Assembly (NCBI GenBank): GCA_944331935.1
Contig: CALVIV010000005.1
Coordinates: forward strand, 1-44,699
DNA length: 44,699 bases
Direction of reading: 5' to 3'
DNA from: an uncultured Bacilli bacterium
GTDB lineage: Bacteria > Bacillota_I > Bacilli_A > RF39 > UBA660
Under the pieces are notes generated by a model that saw nothing but the letters and a program-made list of their open reading frames with translations, was not told the DNA's origin and searched no databases. Below, piece by piece: positions 152 through 35,349 of this stretch. Numbering within the stretch: position 1 is the stretch's first letter; each line of letters opens with the position of its first letter. Both the position numbers and the translations under genes were made by a program.

Positions 152-610
152 ATGTTAGAACTTATTAAGGAAAGAAAAGTATTAAAAGATAATGGTACAT
201 TCTTTAACCTATTAAGACTATCACTTGAAAGAGAATTAAATGAAAAAGAAAAGAGCAAATTCTTAGAATCTTCTTATAGAAATATAACTTATTTAGAAGA
301 AGAGTTTAAAAATGCTCAAGAAAATGTTATTGGTAACTTAATTATCTATAATTCTCTTATCTATAATGGTATTACATTAGTTAATGATTTAAGAAATGGC
401 CTTAATATAACTAAAGATAACTTTATCAAGGAAAATATAAAGCAGTTTAGTGCCCATTATCAAACAGTTAAAGAATATGAAGAAGCTTTTTTAGAATATA
501 GAGAAAGCAGTACTAATGAAAGTTATGATAAGACAATAGAAAAGTTTGAAGAAGCGATAGATTATAGTGAAGGATATACTTTAGAAAAGACTTTAACTAA
601 AACGAGTTAA
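152..610 (+). CDS. Unknown small helical protein
   Basis: 152 residues, not recognised. The protein is Glu/Lys/Asn-rich with no hydrophobic segment, so it is probably cytoplasmic. The middle (about residues 35-80) and the C-terminal third, with repeated FEEA/YEEA-like patches, look alpha-helical or coiled-coil. The start is set by AGAGGAAG five bases before ATG and by a consensus promoter at 95-123. It is a single-gene unit converging on the minus-strand gene that ends six bases further on. No function can be assigned. Confidence 0.6.
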   Translation: MLELIKERKVLKDNGTFFNLLRLSLERELNEKEKSKFLESSYRNITYLEEEFKNAQENVIGNLIIYNSLIYNGITLVNDLRNGLNITKDNFIKENIKQFSAHYQTVKEYEEAFLEYRESSTNESYDKTIEKFEEAIDYSEGYTLEKTLTKTS

Positions 611-616
611 GGTCTT

Positions 617-1426
617 TTAAAATTCGCTCCCCCTATTAAGATTTGCAAGTTCTATTAGATAACTATTTTCTATACTATCTTTTGTTTCAAAGATATAAGT
701 GTAACTAGTTAACTTATCTTTATATGGTTTTATTAAAGCATTAATATCACTAGATTCATAATCATTATCTTCTTCATATAAATCTACTACTAAGTTTTTA
801 TTATTTACTAAATCAGTATAACTACCAAAATAAGATGAAGTATTAGGATAAGCGAAAGCTTTTTTTAAGGTTATAAAATAGATTAATTTATCTCCATCAA
901 CAATTCTTTTTCCTTCTACATAATAGTTTTCTATAGATAAAGAAGTATAAGCACTATGGGCATGATAATCATTATCTGCTTTATACATATTAGTAGTACT
1001 ATCATAGATTAGATAATCTCCATCATCTAGAAAACAGGTAGAATTAACAGGAGTAAAGGTTGTTTTAGGGCCAAAATATTTCTTTAAGACTCTTTTTACT
1101 CTATCTAGACTAACTCCAGCATCAAAATCTAAATTAAGGTCTTTTTTTACACCAATAGGTAATCTATCTATAAAGTTAATCTTTTCTTTATCTGTTAAAG
1201 TACTCAAATCTTTAGTACCATCAAAAGTAATTATATAACTGTCATAAATATTAACTAATTCTAATAAAGAAGTGACTTCTTTATTAGAAAGACTACTACT
1301 ATCTTCATTAAATGTTTCCCTACTTTCATCTTTTAGATTAATATTAACTATAAATATGATGGATGCTACTATTATGAGGGTTATTAAGGCAATAAATAAC
1401 ATCCCTACTCTTCTTGCATTTTCCAT
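617..1426 (-). CDS. Unknown membrane-anchored extracytoplasmic protein
   Basis: 269 residues. A short positive N-terminus (MENARR) is followed by one hydrophobic segment, about residues 8-30, and then an acidic, Asn/Ser/Tyr-rich domain. The topology is therefore N-in with the bulk outside the membrane. The start has AAAGGAAG eight bases upstream. The domain is not recognised; the style (one anchor plus a small globular Tyr-rich domain) matches other unknown anchored proteins in this window. It lies downstream of the aspS terminator and converges on the plus-strand gene at 152. Confidence 0.6.
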   Translation of the reverse strand: MENARRVGMLFIALITLIIVASIIFIVNINLKDESRETFNEDSSSLSNKEVTSLLELVNIYDSYIITFDGTKDLSTLTDKEKINFIDRLPIGVKKDLNLDFDAGVSLDRVKRVLKKYFGPKTTFTPVNSTCFLDDGDYLIYDSTTNMYKADNDYHAHSAYTSLSIENYYVEGKRIVDGDKLIYFITLKKAFAYPNTSSYFGSYTDLVNNKNLVVDLYEEDNDYESSDINALIKPYKDKLTSYTYIFETKDSIENSYLIELANLNRGSEF

Positions 1427-1484
1427 AAGCTTAGCTTCCTTTCTTACTTAGAGTATAAAGGAAGAATAAAAAATATTCTATAAA

Positions 1485-1516
1485 AAAAGAAAAAAGACAT
1501 GTAAATTTACACGTCT
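1485..1516 (-). terminator. Terminator of the hisS-aspS operon
   Basis: On the minus strand an 11-base-pair arm AGACGTGTAAA pairs with TTTACATGTCT (one G-U) and is followed by TTTTTTC. The hairpin starts at the aspS stop codon. Confidence 0.75.
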
Positions 1517-2832
1517 TATGGATTTAATCTATTAGGGCCTCTAAATATCATCATTGACTCTTTAACACTAGGTAATCCTAATACTAACATAGTAAGTCTA
1601 TCTACTCCAAGTCCAAAGCCACCATGAGGAGGACATCCATATTTAAAGAACTCTAAATAGAACTCTACATCTTTATCAAGACCTTTTTCTTTGGCTTGTT
1701 TAACTAAAACATCATATCTATGCTCACGTTCTGCTCCTGTAGTTATTTCAACACCACGATAAATTAAATCATAACCTTCAGGAATACCATCTTTACGCAT
1801 ATGATAGAAAGCACGTTTTTCTTTAGGATAATCTGTAACAAAGATAAACTCTGAGTTAAACTCATCCATTGCATAACGATAACTTAGTCTCTCTGCTTCA
1901 GTAGTTAAATCATTTTTTTCACTTTCATCTACTTTATAGTCATATCTTTTTTCAAGTTCATCATATAAATCTGCTAATTTTACTCTTGGAAACTTCTCTT
2001 TAGGAACAACTATTTCTTTTCCATAAAGATTTTTAACTAATTCTCCATACTTTTCATTTAACTTCTCTAGAGTATAAGTTAATAGTTCTTCTTCAAAGTC
2101 CATAACATCACGGTAAGAGTCAATATAGGCAAACTCTACATCGAAACCGGTAAACTCTGTTGTGTGTCTTGAAGTATTAGAGTTTTCAGCACGGAAAACA
2201 GGGGCAACTTCAAAGACTCTATCATAACCACTAGCGATAGCCATTTGTTTATAAAATTGAGGTGATTGGGCAAGATATGCTTTTCTATCAAAGTATTTTA
2301 CTTCAAAGACATCTGCCCCACTCTCACTGGCCGCTCCTATTAGTTTAGGGGTATGGATTTCTGTAAAGTCATGAGAATACATAAACTCACGCATATATTT
2401 AACCATATCACTTTGAATCTTAAAGATATTAAAGTTATATTCGTTTCTTAAGTCTAACCAACGATAATCTAGTCTTTGGTCAAGTAGTTGAGCATCTTTA
2501 TCATGAATATTAATAGGAAGTTCTGCATCACTTTTACTTGTAACTTCTATTTTCGTAGGAATAAACTCCATTCCTCTTAATCTAACATTTTCATTTTTCT
2601 TTAGAGTACCTGTTACTTTAATAGTAGATTCTACAGTTAAGTTATTAACTAACTCTATCATCTCAGCATTATTTTCATCACTCTTTTCAATAGTTACTTG
2701 TACTTTATCAGTAGAGTCTCTAAGTACTAAGAACTGGACCCATTTAATATTCCTAATATTTTCAACAAAACCACTAAGTTCTATTTCTTTATCAAAATAA
2801 TTTTCTAAGTCTTTAAAAAATATCTTATTCAT
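1516..2832 (-). CDS. aspS: Aspartyl-tRNA synthetase, archaeal type (likely non-discriminating)
   Basis: Charges tRNA with aspartate. The N-terminal OB-fold anticodon-binding domain (about residues 1-100) is followed by the class II catalytic core. Motif 2 is seen around VFRAENSNTSRH and motif 3 as GFGLGVDRLTMLVLG near the C-terminus. At about 438 residues it lacks the GAD insertion of the usual bacterial AspRS (about 590 residues), which places it in the shorter archaeal/eukaryal-type group (AspS2). Members in Bacillota are often non-discriminating and feed Asp-tRNA(Asn) to GatCAB; that is family knowledge, not shown here. I chose the ATG at 2832, which overlaps the hisS stop by 8 bases and has AAGGA ten bases upstream, over an in-frame ATG at 2853. 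Translational coupling to hisS is likely. Confidence 0.9.
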   Translation of the reverse strand: MNKIFFKDLENYFDKEIELSGFVENIRNIKWVQFLVLRDSTDKVQVTIEKSDENNAEMIELVNNLTVESTIKVTGTLKKNENVRLRGMEFIPTKIEVTSKSDAELPINIHDKDAQLLDQRLDYRWLDLRNEYNFNIFKIQSDMVKYMREFMYSHDFTEIHTPKLIGAASESGADVFEVKYFDRKAYLAQSPQFYKQMAIASGYDRVFEVAPVFRAENSNTSRHTTEFTGFDVEFAYIDSYRDVMDFEEELLTYTLEKLNEKYGELVKNLYGKEIVVPKEKFPRVKLADLYDELEKRYDYKVDESEKNDLTTEAERLSYRYAMDEFNSEFIFVTDYPKEKRAFYHMRKDGIPEGYDLIYRGVEITTGAEREHRYDVLVKQAKEKGLDKDVEFYLEFFKYGCPPHGGFGLGVDRLTMLVLGLPSVKESMMIFRGPNRLNP

Positions 2833-4141
2833 CACAGTCACATCCTTCTTCATGATTATGAAAATCTGCTTCTATAGGCAAGTTATCATCACTTATATGT
2901 TCATCAAAGTAATAGATAATATATTCCATCATAATCTTTTCTTCTTCTTTAGTCTTATTATTCTTAATAGTAATTAAGCCTTCGTTTAAGTCATCACTGT
3001 TAAGTAGTATTAAATATTTACTATTAAAGTAATCTGCTCTTTTAAACTGACTCTTTAAGCTTCTTCCTGTATACTCTGTTTCTACTACAAAGCCTGACAT
3101 TCTAAGTTCATTTGCAAGGTAGATAGCATTTTTCTTTTCATCTTCATTAACATACATAATAAAAGCATCTATATCATCTCTAACGTTTTCTATATCTCTA
3201 TCCATTATCTCTTCAACTAATCTATCAAGTCCAACAGCATAACCTACACATGGTGTTTCTGGTCCACCTAGCATACTAACTAAGTTATCATATCTTCCTC
3301 CACCACCTAAAGCAAGGTTATTATTTTCCGCCATTAGTTCAAAAACAGTATGATTATAATAGTCAAGTCCTCTAACTATCTTAGGGTCTATTTCATATTT
3401 AACTTCTAATAAATCAAGATATTCACACACCTTATCAAAGTGTTCCTTACTTTCAACACTAAGATAATCTAATATATTAGGAGCATCTTTAAAGTAGTCT
3501 TTATTACTATCTACTTTACAGTCTATAATCCTTAAAGGGTTCTTATCAAACCTTTCCTTACAATCATCACATAAGTCGTCTAAATGAGGCTTAAAATAGC
3601 TTTTTAAGGCTTCTCTATATTTATCACGAGACTCTTTATCTCCTATGCTATTAATATGTACTATAGTATCTGTTAGTCCTAACATTTTATTGATATTGTA
3701 AGCAAGAGAGATAACTTCAGCATCCATCATAGGATCACTACTACCTAGAACCTCTACTCCATATTGACTAAGTTCTCTATATCTTCCCTTTTGTGGTCTT
3801 TCATAACGATACATTGTTCCATTATAATAAACTTTAACAGGTAAGTTATGAGTACCATACATTTTATTTTCTATATAACTTCTAACTACTCCTGCCGTTC
3901 CTTCTGGTCTTAAGGTAATAGACCTATCTCCTCTATCTTTAAAGTCATATGTTTCTTTAGTAACTATATCAGTAGAATCTCCTATTCCTCTATGAAATAA
4001 TTCAGTAGATTCAAATATAGGAGTTCTAATATAATTATAGTTATATTTTTCCATTACAGAATCAATTACTTCTTCTACATATTTCCAAGTTCTTGCCTTC
4101 TTATCAGTTAAATCAACTGTTCCTTTTGGTTTACTAATCAT
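2825..4141 (-). CDS. hisS: Histidyl-tRNA synthetase
   Basis: Class II synthetase of about 438 residues. Visible signatures are RPEGTAGVVR (motif 2 region), RGLDYYNHTVFEL (histidine A motif), GGGGRYDNL and GYAVGLDRLV (motif 3), followed by the C-terminal anticodon-binding domain and an unusual acidic Cys/His tail (HNHEEGCDCDE). The start at 4141 (MISKPKGTVDL) has GAAAGGGA just upstream; the longer in-frame start at 4207 adds 22 unrelated residues and is unlikely. First gene of a two-gene operon with aspS, a common Bacillota pairing. A roughly 190-base leader with a terminator-like hairpin precedes it (see 4227-4314). Confidence 0.95.
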   Translation of the reverse strand: MISKPKGTVDLTDKKARTWKYVEEVIDSVMEKYNYNYIRTPIFESTELFHRGIGDSTDIVTKETYDFKDRGDRSITLRPEGTAGVVRSYIENKMYGTHNLPVKVYYNGTMYRYERPQKGRYRELSQYGVEVLGSSDPMMDAEVISLAYNINKMLGLTDTIVHINSIGDKESRDKYREALKSYFKPHLDDLCDDCKERFDKNPLRIIDCKVDSNKDYFKDAPNILDYLSVESKEHFDKVCEYLDLLEVKYEIDPKIVRGLDYYNHTVFELMAENNNLALGGGGRYDNLVSMLGGPETPCVGYAVGLDRLVEEIMDRDIENVRDDIDAFIMYVNEDEKKNAIYLANELRMSGFVVETEYTGRSLKSQFKRADYFNSKYLILLNSDDLNEGLITIKNNKTKEEEKIMMEYIIYYFDEHISDDNLPIEADFHNHEEGCDCDE

Positions 4142-4365: not shown

Positions 4366-4428
4366 GTACGAGTTTTCGTAAATGCCTTCAAACCCTTTAA
4401 TATCAACGAAAATTTATTATTATTTTTT

Positions 4429-6324
4429 TTAAGACTCTAATATTACTTTCTCTGTTCTTCTAATTTCATCTAAAATTTTATTAATTTTTACTATTACTAA
4501 GTCTTCTTTATTATTTAATAGTTCTTCTACTCTTTCCGCCTTATCACTAGTACTATCTAAATAATCATAATCAAAATTAGTAATAGATGTAATTAATAAA
4601 TTATTATCTGCTAGTAAAGAATTTACTATATCTTTAATACTTATAGAATCTTTAGATAAAATAGACTCTATAAAACTATTATTATCTTTATTTAATAAGT
4701 ATCTCTTAAAGATATTTTCAAGCAACAGCTTTAAATAATTATCTCTATTAACACTACTTGCTAAGTCTCTAGCTTTATATTTAGAAGTAAATTTTAAAGT
4801 ATTACCCGTCTTTAAATAATCTATAACAGCATACTCTCCTTGACCTTTCTTATAAACTTTATCACAAATAGATATAGCAGTATTTAAATCAAGAACTGTA
4901 TTAATATCTTTAAAAATATTATTATCATCTTTAGTTATAGTTACATTTATTTTAGGACTAGCTTCTAATAGTTTTAACTCTTCTACTCGCATATTTAGAT
5001 AATCTTTAATCTTATCATAATTAGTTTTAATATTAGATGTTACTTCTAAATCATTATTAATGTTATCACTAGTATTAACAAGAGGAGTATTATCTTCTTT
5101 AATATAGTTACTAGTTAAAAGAGAGTCTATTGTACTAGAATCATATAAAGTCTTTAAAATACTTTTAGTATTAAACTCACTTTTTATATTAGGATTTAAT
5201 AAAACTTCCATGATAAGACGTTCTATTTCTTTTAATTTAGAATCAGACTCTAAATTATAGTTAGGAAAATACTTATCAACATCAATATCATTATAATTAA
5301 TATTAGGATACTTATCACATGGTTTATAATTTACTAATAATGCTATATCATCGATAAAAGATAATTGATTTATAATAGCATCTTCTAATTCCTGTAATCT
5401 TGTTTTATATTTTAATATTACTTCATCTATTTCTTTAGTCATTTTATTTTTATAACTTTTTTCAATATATCTCATATATTCATTAATATCATAATATATT
5501 CCAGCATTTTTAATAATAATTTTACAGGTTTCTATAATATTATCTTTAGTTAAAACTAAATTAGGAAGATTAGTAAAGCTTTGATTTAATATTTCTATCT
5601 CTTTTTCATCTTTTATAATAGCATAATATTTACTATTATCTTCAAGAATATATAAAGCATACACTAAATTTTCATTATCTATGAAAATAGAATCTATTAT
5701 TTGATCATTTATTTTAGCGAACAAGGAGAACATTCTTTCACTATATTTACCTTTTTTATCATCAATATTATTATTTATATTATTTGCTAATAAAGCATTT
5801 GTCTTATTTAAAAACTCATCTAACTTAGAAGTATTCTTACTATTTTTTATCTCTTCATATAAAGGTAACAAACTATCTAAAACTGCCTCAGAAAAATCTT
5901 GATTATTTATTCTTATAATATTATCATTAATTTTCTTAATTATACTATTACATTTTAAAATAGTATTATTATCTTTTATAAAATCTCTAACCTTATCTAC
6001 TAAATTATTATAATTTTCTCTTAAATCGTTATAAATATTATCTAATTCTTTAATTTTTTTTATATTATCGTCTTTTACTGTTAAACTATCTATCTTTTTA
6101 GTTATCTCCTTTTGCAAATTTATATTATTATTAAAATCATCTAAAGTAATAATATCCTGCACTCTAAAAATTAATTGATTATAATGGCCCAATAATTGTT
6201 TTATTAGTTGATTTTTAGCATTAACTTCTTCAGTATTTATAGAATTACTAGTAGTTTTAATAAAATTTTCAATATCAGGCCTAATATCATCTAATTCCCT
6301 TAATAAATCAAGAGTTCTATTCAT
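4429..6324 (-). CDS. Unknown Asn/Ile/Lys-rich coiled-coil protein
   Basis: About 631 residues, not recognised. It has no signal peptide or membrane segment and is extremely Asn-, Asp-, Ile- and Lys-rich with many heptad-like stretches (about residues 1-180 and 300-330). This suggests a long alpha-helical cytoplasmic protein. I prefer ATG at 6324 (MNRTLDLL), with AGGAAG eight bases upstream, over a GTG three codons earlier. It has its own extended -10 promoter (6350-6358) and no close downstream partner. The next 190 bases lead into the hisS leader. A structural or surface-tethering role is possible but not shown. Confidence 0.6.
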   Translation of the reverse strand: MNRTLDLLRELDDIRPDIENFIKTTSNSINTEEVNAKNQLIKQLLGHYNQLIFRVQDIITLDDFNNNINLQKEITKKIDSLTVKDDNIKKIKELDNIYNDLRENYNNLVDKVRDFIKDNNTILKCNSIIKKINDNIIRINNQDFSEAVLDSLLPLYEEIKNSKNTSKLDEFLNKTNALLANNINNNIDDKKGKYSERMFSLFAKINDQIIDSIFIDNENLVYALYILEDNSKYYAIIKDEKEIEILNQSFTNLPNLVLTKDNIIETCKIIIKNAGIYYDINEYMRYIEKSYKNKMTKEIDEVILKYKTRLQELEDAIINQLSFIDDIALLVNYKPCDKYPNINYNDIDVDKYFPNYNLESDSKLKEIERLIMEVLLNPNIKSEFNTKSILKTLYDSSTIDSLLTSNYIKEDNTPLVNTSDNINNDLEVTSNIKTNYDKIKDYLNMRVEELKLLEASPKINVTITKDDNNIFKDINTVLDLNTAISICDKVYKKGQGEYAVIDYLKTGNTLKFTSKYKARDLASSVNRDNYLKLLLENIFKRYLLNKDNNSFIESILSKDSISIKDIVNSLLADNNLLITSITNFDYDYLDSTSDKAERVEELLNNKEDLVIVKINKILDEIRRTEKVILES

Positions 6325-10837: not shown

Positions 10838-12676
10838 CTATTGTAAGGCAATTTCAAATGGATTTTCTCTAGTTCCATCACCAGATGTTATAATAACATT
10901 TGATTTTAGGTTTAAGGATGGTTTAATACCCCGCATAATCAGACCAGGTGTATTAACGGCTATATCACTTGTATTGCTAACATTACATACATTAGGATTA
11001 AATGGTGTTAACAACCAATAATATGCATTATTACCACTTTTATTAAATTGCCCTGACATTAACTCTCCTATCCTTAATAGTCCTACTTTAGATTCTGTAC
11101 TTGTTGTATATCCAGTCATATCAGTATCTGTGTATTTGGCTAGTTTATATGAAGTACCATTTCCTACTATTCCTAAATACCAAGTACTACTTTCTTCTAT
11201 TATATCACTATAACTGCTATCTATATAATTTATTAAATATTCTCCATTTAAAAATGTACCTATTGTATTTGTACTTGAATATATTAGATTTCCAAAAGTA
11301 ATTGTTTTAAAAGTCCCCGAGTCTTTTAAAGGTTCGGCACTAGTTATTTTTGTTCCTATTCCGTTTTCATGGCTTACTATTCTATATAAATTATTTTCAT
11401 CATTTCCAAATCTTATGTATTCTCCACTATATCTTGTATTTAATAGTGTTCCAGATAGATTGGTATCATTGTCTCCTTCTAGACGATATGGATTATCTTC
11501 TGTTCCAGTTCCCGATACTATTTTTATCTCACTTCTTAAAATTATTGCAGGACGTATGCCATAGGAATTTGAAGAACTACGATTACGTAAATAACCATTG
11601 TAATCCAAAATATTTATATTAGACACATTGTATGGGGTCAATGTCCAAAAATAAAGATTATTATTTAAATAACTATAGACGTTACCATTATTACTAGATT
11701 GATATTCATATATATTAATTAACCCCACAGGATCTTCTACAATGTTAGTACCATTAGGTCTTGTTACACTGCCTAATTCTGCAGTACTTTCTGTGGCATC
11801 CCACTTTGCATCTGTCACTATAAAGTTTTCATAATCTCTTAAGTTACCAAGAAAGCCATCGACACTGGTATCGTTTAACCACTCTTCCATATAACTTCCT
11901 GCAAAGGAACTACTATCATCATCATAGGATATTGCACTTATATCCCATTGTGTTACTAATTTAACAGTCTTCTCTTCATTATTAATAAGCACCGCTCTCC
12001 ATAATTTACCAGAGTACCATATATAGTTATTAGGGTCAGTTCCTGTGATAAAGGTATCGACTCCATCATCATACTTATTTTCTCCAGGTATATTTTCAAG
12101 TAATACAGCTCCTGCTTCCTTCGCTCTTTCTTGAGATACTTCTACTCTTAACTTACCACTAAATACTTGCCCAGAATAGTTTCCATCTACCTCATCTGTT
12201 ATCCAAAGATTTAAACTATATGCGTTAGTTCCTCCTCCTTCTATAGTTCCAGAGTCTAACACTCTATTTGAATTAGATCCTGTTCTAGTAAGTAAAGTTG
12301 CACCACTATTCTTTCCATTTTTATTTAGATTATATTTTAAAAACATATCATCTATTCTTGTATCTGTATCACCAATAGTATTATCATCTAAGTAAATAGT
12401 ATAATCTACAGCATTATTTCCATTATTTCTTAATTCAAATGTTGATGGTGTTAAATTCATACCATCTTCATCACTTATTCCTATAGCATTATCCAAAGTT
12501 ATTCCTTCACTTGTTTCATTTAATACTAGTTCTAATTCTCCTACCTTTACTATTTGATCTGATCCATCTAATCTAGTAGAAAAGTAAGCATAACTTATCG
12601 TAAGTACTAAAATCAATATTATGAATATACTTATTACTAAAGTAATTATCTTCTTGTTTTTATTATCTTTTTTCAT
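10838..12676 (-). CDS. Surface protein A: SipW-type signal plus tandem DUF6273-like domains
   Basis: 612 residues. A basic start and hydrophobic segment (about 8-30) end in the ISYAYFST motif of SipW-cognate signal peptides. A TasA/CalY-like beta region (about 34-190) follows. Two copies of a DUF6273-like domain come next: domain 1 (about 195-400) has WYSGKLWRA, WTLTPY and GIRPA; domain 2 (about 405-612) has TWYLGIVG, YWLLTPF and GIKPSLNLKS. The 30 residues between each LTPY and RPx block differ sharply between domains and paralogues, as expected for an exposed binding loop. It is the second gene of an operon, 13 bases after B, and shares a perfect 310-bp block with B. Function unknown; a displayed ligand-binding protein is inference. 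Confidence 0.7.
   Translation of the reverse strand: MKKDNKNKKIITLVISIFIILILVLTISYAYFSTRLDGSDQIVKVGELELVLNETSEGITLDNAIGISDEDGMNLTPSTFELRNNGNNAVDYTIYLDDNTIGDTDTRIDDMFLKYNLNKNGKNSGATLLTRTGSNSNRVLDSGTIEGGGTNAYSLNLWITDEVDGNYSGQVFSGKLRVEVSQERAKEAGAVLLENIPGENKYDDGVDTFITGTDPNNYIWYSGKLWRAVLINNEEKTVKLVTQWDISAISYDDDSSSFAGSYMEEWLNDTSVDGFLGNLRDYENFIVTDAKWDATESTAELGSVTRPNGTNIVEDPVGLINIYEYQSSNNGNVYSYLNNNLYFWTLTPYNVSNINILDYNGYLRNRSSSNSYGIRPAIILRSEIKIVSGTGTEDNPYRLEGDNDTNLSGTLLNTRYSGEYIRFGNDENNLYRIVSHENGIGTKITSAEPLKDSGTFKTITFGNLIYSSTNTIGTFLNGEYLINYIDSSYSDIIEESSTWYLGIVGNGTSYKLAKYTDTDMTGYTTSTESKVGLLRIGELMSGQFNKSGNNAYYWLLTPFNPNVCNVSNTSDIAVNTPGLIMRGIKPSLNLKSNVIITSGDGTRENPFEIALQ
12210..12519 (-). repeat. 310-bp exact duplicate, copy in gene A
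   Basis: Identical base for base by eye to 14080-14389 in gene B. It covers the TasA-like region after the signal segment. Flanking sequence on both sides diverges at once. Confidence 0.85.
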
Positions 12677-12689
12677 TATTTACTCCTTT

Positions 12690-14546
12690 CTACTCTACTA
12701 AAGCAATTTCAAATGGATCTTCTTTTGTACCTGTTCCTGATGATATAATAACATTTGATTTAAGATTTAAAGCAGGCTTAACGGCATATGAATTTGTAGG
12801 CAACGAATAAAGAGTACGAGCATTCTGACTTAAATAATTAGTTTCGGACGATGAAGAAGCCGTTAATGTCCAGTAAGACATTCCTCGAGTATTATTAACT
12901 ACATCAAATTGACCTAGCATTAATTCGCCTAATCTTAACAAACCTACTTTTGCTTCTGTACTTGTAGTATATCCTGACATAGTAGTATCTGTATATTTGG
13001 CTAGTTTATATGAAGTTCCTCTTCCGACAACTCCAAGATACCAAGTATTATTTTCTTCTATCATTTTCCTATATTCACTATTTACATAATTTATTAAGTA
13101 ATCTCCATTCAAGAAAGTACCTATTATATTTGCACTTGAATAATTAACATCTTCTCCAAAAGCCATATTTTTAAAATTACCATTTTCTTTTAAAGGTTCA
13201 GCACTAGTTATTTTTGTTAAGCCTTCCGTCTCATGACTTACTATTCTATATAAATTGTTTTCTCCAGTTCCAAATCTTATATATTCTCCACTATATCTGG
13301 TATTAAACTTAGTTCCAGACAAATCTTGATCACAATCTCTATACAACCTATAAGGTTCATCTTTAGTACCTTTACCGCCTTGAATTGTTATAATATCTTT
13401 CAAAACAATTGTTGGTCTTATTCCAAACGAACTAGATAAAGAAAAATAACTATCATAACCTCCATCTGCACCAATACTAACCATATTCTTTGAGTTATAG
13501 GGAGTTAAAGTTACCCAGTCAGCTTTATTATTTAAATAACAGTCTTTGTAATTTTCACCTTTATAACTGGATTGATATTCATATATATTAAGTAAACCAA
13601 CTGCATTTTCTACTATAGATGCACCATTTGGCCTTGTTATATTGCCTAAGCCTCGATTATCCATAGTTGCGTCCCACTTAGCATCTGTTACAATAAAATT
13701 CTTATAATCTCTTAAATTACCTAAGAAACCATCTACACTGGTATCATTTAACCATTCCTCCATATAACTACCATCAAAAGCACTACTATCATTATCATAT
13801 GGAATAGCACTTATATTCCACTGTGTTACTAATTTAACTGTCTTTGCTTCATTATTAACTGATACCGCTCGCCATAATTTACCACTGTACCAAATATAGT
13901 TATCTGGATTTTCTCCTGTTATAAATGTATCTTCTCCATCATCATACTGATTTTCTTCTGATATATTTGCTAACAATGTTTCTGAAACTGTTGGTCTTTC
14001 TTGACTAACCTCTACTCTTAATTTACCACTAAATACTTGACCTGAGTAATTACCATCCACTTCATCTGTTATCCATAAGTTTAAACTATATGCGTTAGTT
14101 CCTCCTCCTTCTATAGTTCCAGAGTCTAACACTCTATTTGAATTAGATCCTGTTCTAGTAAGTAAAGTTGCACCACTATTCTTTCCATTTTTATTTAGAT
14201 TATATTTTAAAAACATATCATCTATTCTTGTATCTGTATCACCAATAGTATTATCATCTAAGTAAATAGTATAATCTACAGCATTATTTCCATTATTTCT
14301 TAATTCAAATGTTGATGGTGTTAAATTCATACCATCTTCATCACTTATTCCTATAGCATTATCCAAAGTTATTCCTTCACTTGTTTCATCTAAAACAAGT
14401 TCTAATTCTCCTACCTTTACTATTTGATCTGATCCATTTAACTTAGTAGAAAAGTAAGCATAGCTTATCGTAAGTACTAAGATTAATATTATTAATATAC
14501 TTATTACTAAAGTAATTATTTTTTTCTTCTTATTATCTTTCTCCAT
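12690..14546 (-). CDS. Surface protein B: SipW-type signal plus tandem DUF6273-like domains
   Basis: 618 residues, same architecture as A: hydrophobic signal to about residue 30 with ISYAYFST, a TasA-like region, then two DUF6273-like domains. The first has WYSGKLWRAV, VTLTPY and GIRPT; the second has TWYLGVVG, YWTLTAS and VKPALNLKS. The signal and TasA-like part is nearly identical to A, while the variable loops of both domains are different. RBS AAGGAG. It leads the B-A operon from a promoter at 14611-14639 that shares an unusual sequence block with the promoter of surface gene E. It probably acts at the cell surface or in the matrix; its ligand is unknown. Confidence 0.7.
   Translation of the reverse strand: MEKDNKKKKIITLVISILIILILVLTISYAYFSTKLNGSDQIVKVGELELVLDETSEGITLDNAIGISDEDGMNLTPSTFELRNNGNNAVDYTIYLDDNTIGDTDTRIDDMFLKYNLNKNGKNSGATLLTRTGSNSNRVLDSGTIEGGGTNAYSLNLWITDEVDGNYSGQVFSGKLRVEVSQERPTVSETLLANISEENQYDDGEDTFITGENPDNYIWYSGKLWRAVSVNNEAKTVKLVTQWNISAIPYDNDSSAFDGSYMEEWLNDTSVDGFLGNLRDYKNFIVTDAKWDATMDNRGLGNITRPNGASIVENAVGLLNIYEYQSSYKGENYKDCYLNNKADWVTLTPYNSKNMVSIGADGGYDSYFSLSSSFGIRPTIVLKDIITIQGGKGTKDEPYRLYRDCDQDLSGTKFNTRYSGEYIRFGTGENNLYRIVSHETEGLTKITSAEPLKENGNFKNMAFGEDVNYSSANIIGTFLNGDYLINYVNSEYRKMIEENNTWYLGVVGRGTSYKLAKYTDTTMSGYTTSTEAKVGLLRLGELMLGQFDVVNNTRGMSYWTLTASSSSETNYLSQNARTLYSLPTNSYAVKPALNLKSNVIISSGTGTKEDPFEIALVE
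14080..14389 (-). repeat. 310-bp exact duplicate, copy in gene B
   Basis: Partner of 12210-12519. Third-codon positions are also identical, so the copies were homogenised recently. Confidence 0.85.
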
Positions 14547-22591: not shown

Positions 22592-24466
22592 CTAACTACC
22601 CATAGTCAGAACAAACGGATCTGATTTAGTCCCTGTACCTGAAGTTATCTGCACACTAGATTTCAGATTCATGGATGGTCGAGCCCCGAGCGAATAACTC
22701 GAAGGCGAATAGTAGTAAGCATTACCACTGCCGCCGACACACCAAACACTCGACGAACTATATGGTGTTAAAGTCCAATAAGATATTGTTAATCCTGTAC
22801 TAGATGTTCCTCCCTTTACCGCATATCTATCAAATTGTCCTGACATTAATTCTCCAAATCTCAATAACCCTACTTTAGCTTCCGCTACATTTGAGGTTGT
22901 AGCAGTTCCACTTGCATCTGTATATTTTGCATTCTTATATGAGTAGGAACTACCGCTTCCTACAGTTCCAAGGTACCATGTAGTACTATCTTCTATCATA
23001 TTAGCATAACTACTATCTACATAGTTTGTTAGATATTCTCCATTTAAAAATGTACCTACTGTATTTGTACTTGAGAATGTTGTATTACTTCCAAAATTCA
23101 TTGTTATAAATGTACCAGAACTTTTTAGTGATTCAGCACTGACTATCTTTGTTCCTGTTCCATTTTCGTGGCTTACTATTCTGTATAAATTATTTTCATC
23201 ATTTCCAAATTTTATATATTCTCCACTGTATCTACTTGACAACAATGTTCCTGAAAGGTTATTATCATTATCTCCGTTTAAGCGATAAGGATTATCTATT
23301 GTTCCATCACCATCTACAATACGAATGCTAGATTTTAGATTTATAGATGGCCGAGCCCCGTACGAATAACCCGAAGGCGAATAGTAGAGTGCAAGACCAT
23401 TGTAGTTGACATTCCGAACACTTGACGAACTATATGGGGTTAAAGTCCACCACCATAAACCATTATTTAAATACCCATTACTATAAGTTGTTCCTGTATA
23501 ACTAGATTGATACTCATACATATTTAAAAGTCCTACTGCATCTGTTACTATCATACCATCGTCCCTTGGTCTTGTTATGCTTCCTAAATCAGTAGCATCC
23601 ATTGTCGCATTCCACTTAGCATCTGTTACAATAAAGTTTTCGTAATCTCTTAAATTACCTAAGAAACCATCTACACTGGGATCATTTAACCACTCTTCCA
23701 TATAGCTTTCTTCAAAAGCTGTATTCCCACTTGCATTATAAGAAATAGCACTTATATTCCATTGTGTTACTAATTTAGTTGTTCCTGCTTCATTATTAAC
23801 AGACACTGCTCTCCATAATTTACCACTATACCAGATATAGTTATTAGGGTCAGTTCCTGTTATAAAGGTATCTGTTCCATCATCATAAGTACTTCCATTA
23901 TCTCCCACATTACCAAGTACCACATCACTTACTGGGTTACCTTGATACTCCTCAAATAAATGCCCATTACTAGGTAAACTTAAATCATTATAATCTAGTC
24001 CTACTTGCACCCCTAAAGTAATTGTTACACTACTACTAGAGTCATTATTTACTCTTATCTTATAAATATTACTAGAACCTGCTGTTCCACTCTTCTCCAA
24101 ATTAACTCCTACTGCAGCAGGAGGGGTATTTAGGCCTTCTCCTGTTACATATCCAGCAGTTACTCCACTAGGTAGACTTCCTTCATAATAAAAATTAAAT
24201 CTTGCTATTCTATTATTAGGATTAGATAGTGTTACTGTAAACTCTTTTGTCTCTCCTGTTCCTACTGTTAACTTATTCCCTTCAGTACCGTCTATATCTA
24301 ATTTATATACTAAATTACCTGTTATTATCGTTATAGCATTACTCTTCTCCTTACTAACTGTAAACATAGCATAAGAAAAATATACTCCTAACATTATAAA
24401 TGTTATTATTATCATTACTATCATATATATCTTACTAAAACTTGTCTCTAATAATAATCTTTTCAT
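22592..24466 (-). CDS. Surface protein C: tandem DUF6273-like domains with two related variable patches
   Basis: About 624 residues. The N-terminus MKRLLLETSFSKIYMIV and the hydrophobic segment to about residue 30 end in YFSYAMFTVSKEKSN, a SipW-type signal shared with protein E. A TasA-like beta region (about 35-190) precedes two DUF6273-like domains. Both end in the same scaffold, WTLTPYSSSSV followed by a variable stretch, then YYSPS-YS-GARPS and NLKSS. These two segments are encoded by 104-bp GC-rich blocks that are alike, while the rest of the two domains is diverged. AAAGGAG eight bases before ATG 24466 sets the start. It sits behind a terminator and a short G9-containing ORF, suggesting attenuated expression. 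A displayed, diversified binding protein is the best guess. Confidence 0.75.
   Translation of the reverse strand: MKRLLLETSFSKIYMIVMIIITFIMLGVYFSYAMFTVSKEKSNAITIITGNLVYKLDIDGTEGNKLTVGTGETKEFTVTLSNPNNRIARFNFYYEGSLPSGVTAGYVTGEGLNTPPAAVGVNLEKSGTAGSSNIYKIRVNNDSSSSVTITLGVQVGLDYNDLSLPSNGHLFEEYQGNPVSDVVLGNVGDNGSTYDDGTDTFITGTDPNNYIWYSGKLWRAVSVNNEAGTTKLVTQWNISAISYNASGNTAFEESYMEEWLNDPSVDGFLGNLRDYENFIVTDAKWNATMDATDLGSITRPRDDGMIVTDAVGLLNMYEYQSSYTGTTYSNGYLNNGLWWWTLTPYSSSSVRNVNYNGLALYYSPSGYSYGARPSINLKSSIRIVDGDGTIDNPYRLNGDNDNNLSGTLLSSRYSGEYIKFGNDENNLYRIVSHENGTGTKIVSAESLKSSGTFITMNFGSNTTFSSTNTVGTFLNGEYLTNYVDSSYANMIEDSTTWYLGTVGSGSSYSYKNAKYTDASGTATTSNVAEAKVGLLRFGELMSGQFDRYAVKGGTSSTGLTISYWTLTPYSSSSVWCVGGSGNAYYYSPSSYSLGARPSMNLKSSVQITSGTGTKSDPFVLTMGS
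22673..22776 (-). repeat. Variable-region-like block 2 in gene C
   Basis: Aligns without gaps to 23345-23448 with 20 differences in 104 positions. 42 of the 80 bases at 22681-22760 are G or C, against roughly a third or less in the surrounding gene. Rare codons (TCG, GGC, CTC, GGG) are concentrated here. Confidence 0.7.
23345..23448 (-). repeat. Variable-region-like block 1 in gene C
   Basis: Partner of 22673-22776. The invariant scaffold includes sense TTCGTC, TACTATTCGCCTTCG and GGGGCTCG. The differing codons encode residues between LTPYSSSSV and ARPS. Confidence 0.7.
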
Positions 24467-24494
24467 TATTAATACTCCTTTCATTATTTAACTC

Positions 24495-31617: not shown

Positions 31618-33546
31618 CTAGTTTAAAGCAATTTGAAATGGTGAATTTTTAGTCCCATTTCCTCCTGTTATTACTACATTAGATTTTAGATTTAGGGATG
31701 GTTTAATACCAAAATCAGCTATAGATTCAGAACTACCAGAGAAACTATCACCATATATGTAGTGTATACCAGATGTACTATATGGAGTTAAAACCCAATA
31801 ATTAAACGTTAAATTACTAATTGTATCGCTTCCTTTTAAAGCATTTCTTTCAAATTGTCCGCTCATTAGTTCTCCTATTCTAAGTAGTCCTACTTTAGCA
31901 TCTGTACTTGTAGCATAACTTGACATACTTGTATCTACATATTTTGCTAACCTATAACTTGTTCCACCTCCAACAGTCCCAAGATACCATGTAGTACTAT
32001 CTTCTATCGTATTACTATAATTACTTCCTACATAATTTGTTAAGTATTCCCCATTTAAGAAAGTGCCTATTGTATTTTTATTTGAATAATTTACATTTCT
32101 ACTACTATTAAAAGCACTGCTTATAAAACTTTCTCCACTTTTTAATGGTTCTGCACTTGTTATTTTTGTTAATCCTTCTGTCTCATGACTTACTATTCTG
32201 TATAAATTGTTTTCATCATTCCCAAATCTTATATATTCTCCACTATATCTTGTATTAAGCATTGTTCCTAATAAGTCTTTATCATTATCTCCTTCTAAGC
32301 GATATGGATCATTTTTTTTACCACTTCCTGATACTATTTTTACATCACTTTTTAAATTTATTGATGGACGAACTCCAACAACTGCTCCTGGAGAACTAGT
32401 ATACATATTTCCACTATATAAAATACGATAAACAGAAGAAACATCATTAGGTGTTAAAGTCCACCAAGTAAGACCATTATTCAAATAACCATTACTGTAA
32501 TCTGTTCCTCTAAAACTCTCCTGATATTCATACATATTTAAGAGTCCTACAGTATCTGTTACAGTTGTCGTTCCATTTGGTCTTGTTATACTTCCTAATT
32601 CTCTATCATCCATTGTAGCATCCCATACTGCATCTATTACGATAAACTTATCTGATTCTCTTAAATTTCCTAAGAATCCATCTACTGTTGTATCATTTAA
32701 CCACTCTTCCATATGACTACCTTCGAAGTCGGTACTATTATCATTATATGGTACCGTAGTTATATTCCACTGTGTTACTAACTTAACTGTCTTAGTTTTA
32801 TTATTAGTAAGTACCGCCCTCCATAACTTTCCACTATACCAGATATAGTTATTTGGATCTTCTCCAGTTATAAAGGTATCTACTCCATCATCATATTGAT
32901 TTTCTTCTGGTATATTTGCAAGTAAGACATCACTTACTGGTTCTGCTGTTCTATCTTTTCCATAGACATTTACTCTTACACTAAATGACAAGTTCCCTCC
33001 ATCTCCCTGAGGATTATATTCTTCATCAACCCACATTCTAAGTCTATATCTATTACTTTCACTAGAGTTCATACTACTTGTATATAAACTCATCTCATTA
33101 GCAAGTCTTCCTGTATAGTCATTGGCACTTGCTTCTTCATTGTAAGTCTCTGGTGTCATTAATTCTTCTTCGCCACTATCTGTTAATTTTGTTAGATATA
33201 GCTTTATATTAGAACCATCTATCTTTCTTTCGCTAGTTGTTACATCTTTTGCACTGATCTCGTAATTTATATTAGTATTTCCACTTATCTCACTACTAAC
33301 AGTAAAATCAAAATATTCTCCATCGTTTAATCTTACCTTTCCTGTCGCATCAGTTGTAGGTAGAGCACCACTCATACTGATTATGTTATCATCTTCAGTA
33401 TAAGTCATCTTTATCGCTCCTGTTGTTATAGTATTTACTTTAGTACCCAAACCACTATAGTTAAAGGCGGCATAACTTATCCCTATTATTGCAATTACCA
33501 TTATTATTAAAACTACTACTATTATTATTTTTTCTTTCTTCTTCAT
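31618..33546 (-). CDS. Surface protein D: SipW-like signal plus tandem DUF6273-like domains
   Basis: 642 residues. N-terminal KKKEK and a hydrophobic segment to about residue 28 ending GISYAAFNYSG. A TasA-like beta region of about 170 residues has a different sequence from A/B and C/E. Domain 1 carries WYSGKLWRAV, WWTLTPND and GVRPSINLKS; domain 2 carries TWYLGTVGGG, YWVLTPYST and GIKPSLNLKS. The loop between each LTP and RPS block is unlike all paralogues, and its codons are ordinary A/T-rich ones, unlike gene C. It lies 15 bases after E in the same operon, inserted between rpsO and pnp. Confidence 0.7.
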   Translation of the reverse strand: MKKKEKIIIVVVLIIMVIAIIGISYAAFNYSGLGTKVNTITTGAIKMTYTEDDNIISMSGALPTTDATGKVRLNDGEYFDFTVSSEISGNTNINYEISAKDVTTSERKIDGSNIKLYLTKLTDSGEEELMTPETYNEEASANDYTGRLANEMSLYTSSMNSSESNRYRLRMWVDEEYNPQGDGGNLSFSVRVNVYGKDRTAEPVSDVLLANIPEENQYDDGVDTFITGEDPNNYIWYSGKLWRAVLTNNKTKTVKLVTQWNITTVPYNDNSTDFEGSHMEEWLNDTTVDGFLGNLRESDKFIVIDAVWDATMDDRELGSITRPNGTTTVTDTVGLLNMYEYQESFRGTDYSNGYLNNGLTWWTLTPNDVSSVYRILYSGNMYTSSPGAVVGVRPSINLKSDVKIVSGSGKKNDPYRLEGDNDKDLLGTMLNTRYSGEYIRFGNDENNLYRIVSHETEGLTKITSAEPLKSGESFISSAFNSSRNVNYSNKNTIGTFLNGEYLTNYVGSNYSNTIEDSTTWYLGTVGGGTSYRLAKYVDTSMSSYATSTDAKVGLLRIGELMSGQFERNALKGSDTISNLTFNYWVLTPYSTSGIHYIYGDSFSGSSESIADFGIKPSLNLKSNVVITGGNGTKNSPFQIALN

Positions 33547-33561
33547 AGTTACACCAACTTT

Positions 33562-35349
33562 CTACATATTTGGACTAATAACAAGACGGAAGGAATCACT
33601 CAAATTAGGTCCTCCTACAAAAAAGCTATTTAAACCAAAACTAAATACTCCCGAAGTTTTACCATTACTATATGCACCACCACGCAACATCCATGGATAT
33701 TCTTCACTAACTATTTTAGATGAATCACTATACCATCCTGCTGTTTCTGATAAACCATGACTTAAGCATATATTACCATTACAGGCTGTATTTATATTAT
33801 CACTTGTATATTTATCATAATATTTAGACTCTGGCATTGTAACAAATCCTGAGATTGCAATTGTATCATTATAATTGGCTATTACATAATCCCAAGAACC
33901 TCCACTCATATCATATATTCCATAGATATTGCCTGTAGTTGAGGCTCCTGTTCCATTAATGTCCGCATCATATGTATATTGACAACCAAAACCGGAATCA
34001 CCAACATTTGGTGCTCCATAACTACAACCTGTTATAAACTGATTACTTTTATTTTCATATATTTCTTTATTAACTCCTGTAAAATTAATATTTCCTAATT
34101 TTCCATATTTACTTTGAGATAAATAGGCAACTATAGACCATTCACTATTCTTCATCATATGAGTATCTACATTACTACTAAAACCATATCTATTTCCTTC
34201 ATCATTCATTTTTAAACTTACATTAAAAGCATTACTTACACTTATTCCTCTCCAACTAGTTACATTCGGTTTTATCATTGCATCTAGCTCTGTTGTATTG
34301 CCTCCTCCATTTTCAGCTTCAGGGTTACTACTTGAAGTTTCAAACTTTCCTACCCAGATTCCTGATAGTTCTTGATCTCCAAAGGTGAAGGCATCTGGGG
34401 TATACCAACTATTGTCTTCTATTCCATTACTTACTATATACTTGGCTGTTCCTATATCTTTTATATTAGTATCTACAAATCTTATATCTATTTCTCCTGG
34501 TAAAGCTTGGGTTGGATCTGTGTCTAAATAGCATCCTTTCTTTCCATAGTAATTTGTTCCATCTTCGCTTCCTATAGAGTAACTATATCTTGGTATCCAT
34601 ACCCACATTGTCTCTATATCATCCATTGATATTGTTGTTCCTACAGCAGCACTCTTATATGTATCTCTTGTTGATTCTGTTACAGTTACAGCATTAGCCC
34701 ACATCAAATCATTATAGTTATACCAGTTATTATCTGTATTATTAGTATCAGCTTTTACCCAGTTACTTCCATCATATGACACTGGGATCATTCCTTCATC
34801 CAACTCTGGTACATTAGGTTCATTTACATACTCACTAAATAAATGTCCATTACTTGGTATTTCTAAATCATTATAATCTAATCCTACATTTACCCCTAAC
34901 TCTATACTTACTTCATTATCACTATTATTCTCTACCATTATCTTATAGATATTACTAGAACCTGCAGTACCATCTTTCTCTAAATTAACTCCCTTCGCTT
35001 CAGGTAATGTATTCGTCTCACAATCTCCTACATATCCTACCTTTACATTATTTGATATTTCATTTAGATAATAAAAATTATATCTTGCTATTCTATTATT
35101 AGGATTACTTAATCTTACTATAAACTCTTTACTACTATTAGACTCTACTACTAACGTATTTCCTTCAGTACCATCTACTTCTAATTTATATTCTAAATTA
35201 CCTGTTATTATCGTTATAGCATTACTTTTCTCTTTACTTACCGTAAACATTGCATATGAAAAGTATCCACCTAATACTAATAACGTTATTATAACCATTA
35301 CTATCATATATATCTTACTAAAACTAGTCTCTAGTAATAATCTTTTCAT
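33562..35349 (-). CDS. Surface protein E: SipW-like signal plus formylglycine-enzyme-like domain
   Basis: 595 residues. The N-terminal 190 or so residues (MKRLLLETSFSKIYMIV, YFSYAMFTVSKEKSN, TasA-like region) are closely related to protein C. The rest is a different module of the FGE-sulfatase/C-type-lectin type: MWVWIPRYSYSI early, GNIYGIYDMSGGSWDYV in the middle, and a C-terminus PWMLRGGAYSNGKTSGVF ... SFRLVISPNM. Many variable proteins of diversity-generating retroelements end with this RGG...GVF...SFRLV layout, and the variable residues sit between those blocks. I see no catalytic evidence. RBS AGGAG. It leads the E-D operon from a promoter sharing a box with B's. Confidence 0.7.
   Translation of the reverse strand: MKRLLLETSFSKIYMIVMVIITLLVLGGYFSYAMFTVSKEKSNAITIITGNLEYKLEVDGTEGNTLVVESNSSKEFIVRLSNPNNRIARYNFYYLNEISNNVKVGYVGDCETNTLPEAKGVNLEKDGTAGSSNIYKIMVENNSDNEVSIELGVNVGLDYNDLEIPSNGHLFSEYVNEPNVPELDEGMIPVSYDGSNWVKADTNNTDNNWYNYNDLMWANAVTVTESTRDTYKSAAVGTTISMDDIETMWVWIPRYSYSIGSEDGTNYYGKKGCYLDTDPTQALPGEIDIRFVDTNIKDIGTAKYIVSNGIEDNSWYTPDAFTFGDQELSGIWVGKFETSSSNPEAENGGGNTTELDAMIKPNVTSWRGISVSNAFNVSLKMNDEGNRYGFSSNVDTHMMKNSEWSIVAYLSQSKYGKLGNINFTGVNKEIYENKSNQFITGCSYGAPNVGDSGFGCQYTYDADINGTGASTTGNIYGIYDMSGGSWDYVIANYNDTIAISGFVTMPESKYYDKYTSDNINTACNGNICLSHGLSETAGWYSDSSKIVSEEYPWMLRGGAYSNGKTSGVFSFGLNSFFVGGPNLSDSFRLVISPNM

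Follow-up and report, generated by a model that had tools for sequence, protein, structure and literature searches.

In diversity-generating retroelements (DGRs), a reverse transcriptase (RT) miscopies the adenines of a template, and the cDNA then replaces a variable region (VR). The DGR of Bordetella phage BPP-1 resembles the system described here in having an RT with an SQ motif, a candidate Avd-like partner, adenine-specific change and a presumably lectin-like target whose VR lies close to the domain end. DUF6273 has been published as a DGR target domain whose C-terminal end holds the VR and for which a C-type-lectin-like model was given (PMC11792537, PMC10743442). Targets distant from the RT, use of a template in trans and a target whose diversification has stopped were reported from cyanobacteria and Thiohalocapsa, so that an RT adjoining its target is no strict requirement (PMC7517822, PMC10907252), and more than one DGR template per genome has also been published (PMC6642488).

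The window analysed here (the whole stretch of DNA, 44,699 nucleotides) is contig C5 of the 1.48-Mb draft genome of a gut bacterium (G000, 83 contigs). Its two-domain DUF6273 gene is a further instance of the already known remote DGR targets, and it is useful as an example of a target left alone after having been written; the main weight of the finding is carried by a second, array-based system uncovered by the genome search for an RT and a template. Compared with BPP-1, the RT and the template of the first system lie on different contigs, there are several chromosomal targets with two VRs per protein, and the match of the Avd-like protein is weak. In the DUF6273 targets known from Faecalibacterium prophages and crAss-like phages the VR likewise lies at the C-terminal end of the domain (PMC11792537, PMC10743442), whereas here the targets form a bacterial family of ~ 20 members with two DUF6273 domains per protein and no phage context was seen; two scans of viral contigs yielded no relatives. 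As in cyanobacteria and Thiohalocapsa, VR genes are distant from the RT, but here the template, too, stands apart from the RT, and in the genus several targets are followed by a copy of it.

Table 1 Location of the features described in the text
Feature	Location	Strand	Basis
DUF6273 target gene, 630 aa, N-terminal hydrophobic segment and two DUF6273 domains	window 22592..24484	(-)	ORF, translation, PF19789
Domain 2 VR core, 79 bp (in the first block of the original prediction)	window 22678..22756	(-)	homology to C20:962-1040
Domain 1 VR core, 79 bp (in the second block of the original prediction)	window 23350..23428	(-)	homology to C20:962-1040
Whole block homology, domain 2 VR	window 22656..22779	(-)	BLAST with inferred template
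Whole block homology, domain 1 VR	window 23328..23449	(-)	BLAST
Segment common with G014:C9, 95.7%, both VRs almost unaltered	window 22613..23887	(-)	
A-rich template, TCGTCAAACGTTCGGTGTGTCAACAACAATGGTAACACGAACAACAATTCGCCTTCGAGTAATTCGAACGGCATGCGGC	C20:962-1040		outside any ORF
Elements inserted in templates	L025 about 4411-4435; L110 12495-15899; L125 75; L129 1464		
Group II intron in C1 DGR RT	L014 7240-9160	(-)	Rfam; joined flanks
C1 template array, one FGE/lectin-like target beside it	L014 10333-12175 (G000:C1)		
Congener array stretches, likewise with one FGE/lectin-like target	L149, L150 with L244, L151, L152, L154, L155, L157, L158		
Stop-carrying templates nearest the target, and target VRs occupied by such a sequence	L014 about 12060-12175; L151 10895 and 9737; L152 2621 and 3272		

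The PF19789 (DUF6273) profile matched the window gene in two stretches with 32.7 bits, against a curated cut-off of 23.5, and each of the two domains terminates in one VR. The original prediction, made from the window alone, had singled out two blocks in this gene (22673-22776 and 23345-23448, minus strand) as likely DGR targets. These were found to align without gaps, with 84 of 104 positions identical, and the counts given at that time were reproduced (20 differences, 15 of them with A in one copy). The blocks are GC-rich (51% and 48%, compared with gene-wide and window-wide values of 34% and 29%), and the remainder of the domains has diverged as described, the 570 nt upstream of the blocks being just 68% identical with gaps allowed. 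Two of the 20 differences fall outside the 79-bp cores, and block homology runs slightly past the 104-bp blocks. The further proposal that the differences arose from A was borne out for most of the core, where they coincide with template A; five of the 18 core sites, however, lie on non-A template bases. With the template at C20:962-1040 taken as an independent reference, the two VR cores differed from each other at 13/24 template-A columns and 5/55 others (p = 3.4e-5).

Over a stretch of 40 codons, 11 of the codons changed between the two VRs were non-synonymous and six synonymous, and every changed codon with AAC or AAT in the template was non-synonymous. The proposed placement of the variable codons in a lectin-type loop agrees with the published identification of DUF6273 as a DGR target, modelled as C-type-lectin-like (PMC10743442, PMC11792537), and the putative fold of this type is taken from PMC10743442. 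Fold prediction for domain 2 with 14 close relatives reached a pLDDT of 35, too low for use, and a PDB profile search returned zero matches. Three more DUF6273 genes are present in the window (10838-12676, 12690-14546 and 31618-33546, minus strand) with VR-like ends that do not have the template scaffold; these ends are perhaps much older than, or unrelated to, the C20-type template.

Searching the window confirmed that it holds neither an RT nor a template. The whole-genome search recommended with the original prediction yielded both, an RT on contig C78 with an Avd-like neighbour and a template of the same scaffold on contig C20. Five matches to REVERSE TRANSCRIPTASE (RT) were present in the genome. 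The C78 RT (317 aa, reading frame open) is of the DGR type, with motifs IGNYTSQ and YMDD, and its nearest solved structure is PDB 8ub7 (2.9e-19), which we take to be the RT of the Bordetella phage BPP-1 DGR. It is accompanied by the Avd-like protein, which matched the bAvd profile weakly and under the cut-off (E = 0.002) but keeps its position and size in congeners, and by a third small protein. Two other RTs were set aside as sources, namely that of C2, which is of the group II intron type with a maturase domain, and that of C10, which lies beside helicase and ATPase genes and is devoid of the DGR SQ motif.

Close relatives of the C78 RT were found throughout the genus. In five congeners (G001, G006, G022, G026 and G030) an RT 85-95% identical to it (79% in G006) stands behind a template and a DUF6273 target, unlike in this genome, where RT and template are on separate contigs and the region upstream of the RT operon holds, instead of a template and target, a repeat also found at the end of C26. 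Some congeners likewise have templates on contigs other than that of the RT. Because the draft comprises 83 contigs and its contamination is estimated at 2.3%, the assignment of RT, template and window gene to one cell rests on binning; RT, template and window-type gene co-occur in congeners. A third DGR-like RT lineage was also observed in congeners (L159-L163, L245), ~ 45% identical to the C78 RT and with small Avd-like neighbours.

The C20 template sits ~ 100 bp behind a DUF6273 gene with two VRs, and comparison with these gave a clean result: 13/24 and 11/24 A-sites were changed, and 0/55 other sites in each (24/48 and 0/110 when pooled). Change between template and VR at this locus is thus restricted to template A, which is the A-specific signature of a DGR. 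The template is preceded by a leader (TATAATTAGTTTAAA..ATTATAGTAGGGAAT) and followed by a trailer (CATTTCCTTTTAAACCTAGCATTAT), a terminator-like hairpin and then a DedA gene, with no RT after the template at this locus. Leader, trailer and hairpin are common to many congeners, the trailer being present in 23 of 35 genomes of the genus. Another template preceded by this leader lies on contig C4, where a recombinase element cuts it short. Elements with inverted repeats of ~ 45 bp at their ends were inserted at the identical template position in four cases (G000:C4, G015:C8, G020:C82 and G009:C20), and the one in L110 encodes three tyrosine recombinases.

Taken together, the blocks in the window are almost certainly DGR variable regions by origin, and since an RT and a template are present in the genome and RT, template and target occur together in congeners, we regard the window gene as a remote target with two VRs. 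The rival view that the blocks are ordinary conserved ends of paralogous domains, shaped by drift under selection or by gene conversion with no retroelement, could draw on the large DUF6273 family in the genome (21 matches) and on the likelihood of recombination among its members, but it can be dismissed as practically untenable because a non-coding A-rich template forms exact A-only pairs with VRs, and also in view of the adjoining RT in congeners and the saturation of template-A columns across homologues.

The C20 template is, however, a poor fit to the window gene itself: 15/24 template-A and 8/55 other sites were changed in the domain 2 VR, and 13/24 and 8/55 in the domain 1 VR. As each VR thus shows eight non-A mismatches, the window VRs appear to derive from a template version absent from the assembly. 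They share with the VRs of C38 and C72 a common ending, GGGGCTCGGC (GGGGCTCGAC in one copy), which therefore points to another template version. A whole-genome search with the C20 template found none that fits the window VRs (ending AACGGGGCTCGGC), returning just VRs (~ 20 relatives of those in the window, several of them at contig ends), C20 itself and short matches at chance level. Among ~ 20 templates of congeners, the nearest to the window VRs was an orphan template of the sister species G014 (C8:57288), with four non-A mismatches per VR. We attribute the writing of the window VRs to an older or missing version of the template.

The same sister species also has a copy of the final 1.27 kb of the window gene, 95.7% identical and joined to a different N-terminal part. 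Between the two copies 45/1115 sites differed outside the VRs (4%), while within the VRs the differences amounted to 1/48 template-A and 5/110 other sites. In comparisons of the window VRs with 18 other homologues, 45-73% of template-A sites differed, versus 11-20% outside the VRs; about half of the A-sites should therefore differ had either copy been rewritten. The conservation of 47 of the 48 template-A sites implies that both VRs predate the split of the window and G014 copies, and the VRs look frozen, with no rewriting since the copies separated, a reading based on one sister copy. The strain comparison proposed earlier consequently turned up no ongoing diversification, its single near-identical copy keeping these sites, and of the original DGR reading the origin stands, on the strength of the RT, the template and the clean A-only pairs at C20, while a present-day process in the window gene is not supported. 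DGR origin and a frozen state jointly are highly probable.

The limitation of the 95.7% identity to the 3' part of the gene, together with the occurrence in G014 of the nearest template, leaves some room for a gain of this part, its VRs already written in another lineage, by recombination with a G014 relative. This would be a sub-case of DGR origin, and we consider it possible, if rather doubtful, given that transfer could run in either direction and that C38 and C72 of this genome have VRs of the same template version. Much less likely is present-day activity of the window VRs, with the C78 RT rewriting them in trans on the basis of the C20 template. The RT frame is open, the template is intact and shares its scaffold with the window VRs, and other VRs in the genome match it exactly; against this stand the non-A mismatches of each window VR and the near-identity of the G014 VRs although the flanks have drifted by 4%. 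A C78-type RT was absent from the G014 assembly.

Under the preferred reading of DGR origin followed by a frozen state, the C78 RT, its Avd-like neighbour and the other small protein would constitute the machinery for a remote two-domain target. The C20 template, having no adjoining RT, would act in trans in this genome, for which there is a precedent in another system (PMC10907252). Mutagenesis would mostly hit AAC/AAT codons in a loop of the DUF6273 domain of a protein that is probably displayed on the cell surface and may bind a ligand. The window VRs would have been written in this manner from the older or missing template and left unrewritten since the copies split.

The second DGR of the same genome, on contig C1, shows a strong bAvd match. 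A group II intron, both parts of which gave Rfam matches, interrupts the YMDD motif of its RT, and the joined flanks give an open frame resembling the intact 355-aa RT of G012. Between Avd and target lie six template-like repeats spaced by ~ 350 bp, each delimited by CGGCGGT and TCGTTCCGCCTCGTGATGAG, and arrays of 3, 3, 5, 5, 5, 6, 11 and 25 members were found in eight congeners. At each of the nine loci the target VR matched one array member. Comparison of the seven stop-free targets with the fitting member showed differences at 82/190 A-sites and 2/389 other sites (p = 2e-43), whereas runner-up members had at least 12 non-A differences, plus gaps. The position of the fitting member, counted from the target, varied among species (2, 2, 3, 3, 3, 6 and 19), and the sequence alone thus identifies which member last wrote each target. 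A paralogue of the C1 target is present in the window (33562-35349, minus strand), its VR-like end being unmatched to the C1 templates.

The template nearest to the target was A-poor and carried an in-frame stop at seven of nine loci (A content 8-16%, compared with a mean of 30%), while in-frame stops were found in 0/62 other array templates. In G028 and G032 the target VR equals the stop-carrying template sequence, shortening the G028 target protein to 594 aa (628 in this genome), with short-read misassembly over ~ 113 identical bases a possible source of these two VRs. We lean, with moderate confidence, towards a second DGR that combines choice of a template from the array with A-mutagenesis and in which the nearest, stop-carrying template would act as a built-in off switch, the latter because its sequence was found in the target VR of two species. 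Template choice would then switch the target protein, and the stop copy would arrive via retrohoming rather than by recombination or assembly error. If true, this amounts to cassette switching of the antigenic-variation kind carried out by reverse transcription, and a DGR would be capable of programmed switching and shut-off besides random diversification. Multi-template DGRs have been reported, and in the literature covered, which was incomplete, neither a tandem array nor a stop template was found; compared with those systems (PMC6642488), the second DGR differs in its tandem array, where each target fits one member at non-A sites, and in its stop-carrying template. A row of ~ ten template-like repeats with a different scaffold was also seen next to a DGR RT in G198, from another genus of the family (L277, G198:C58, about 177-3482), where it lies on the opposite side of the RT.
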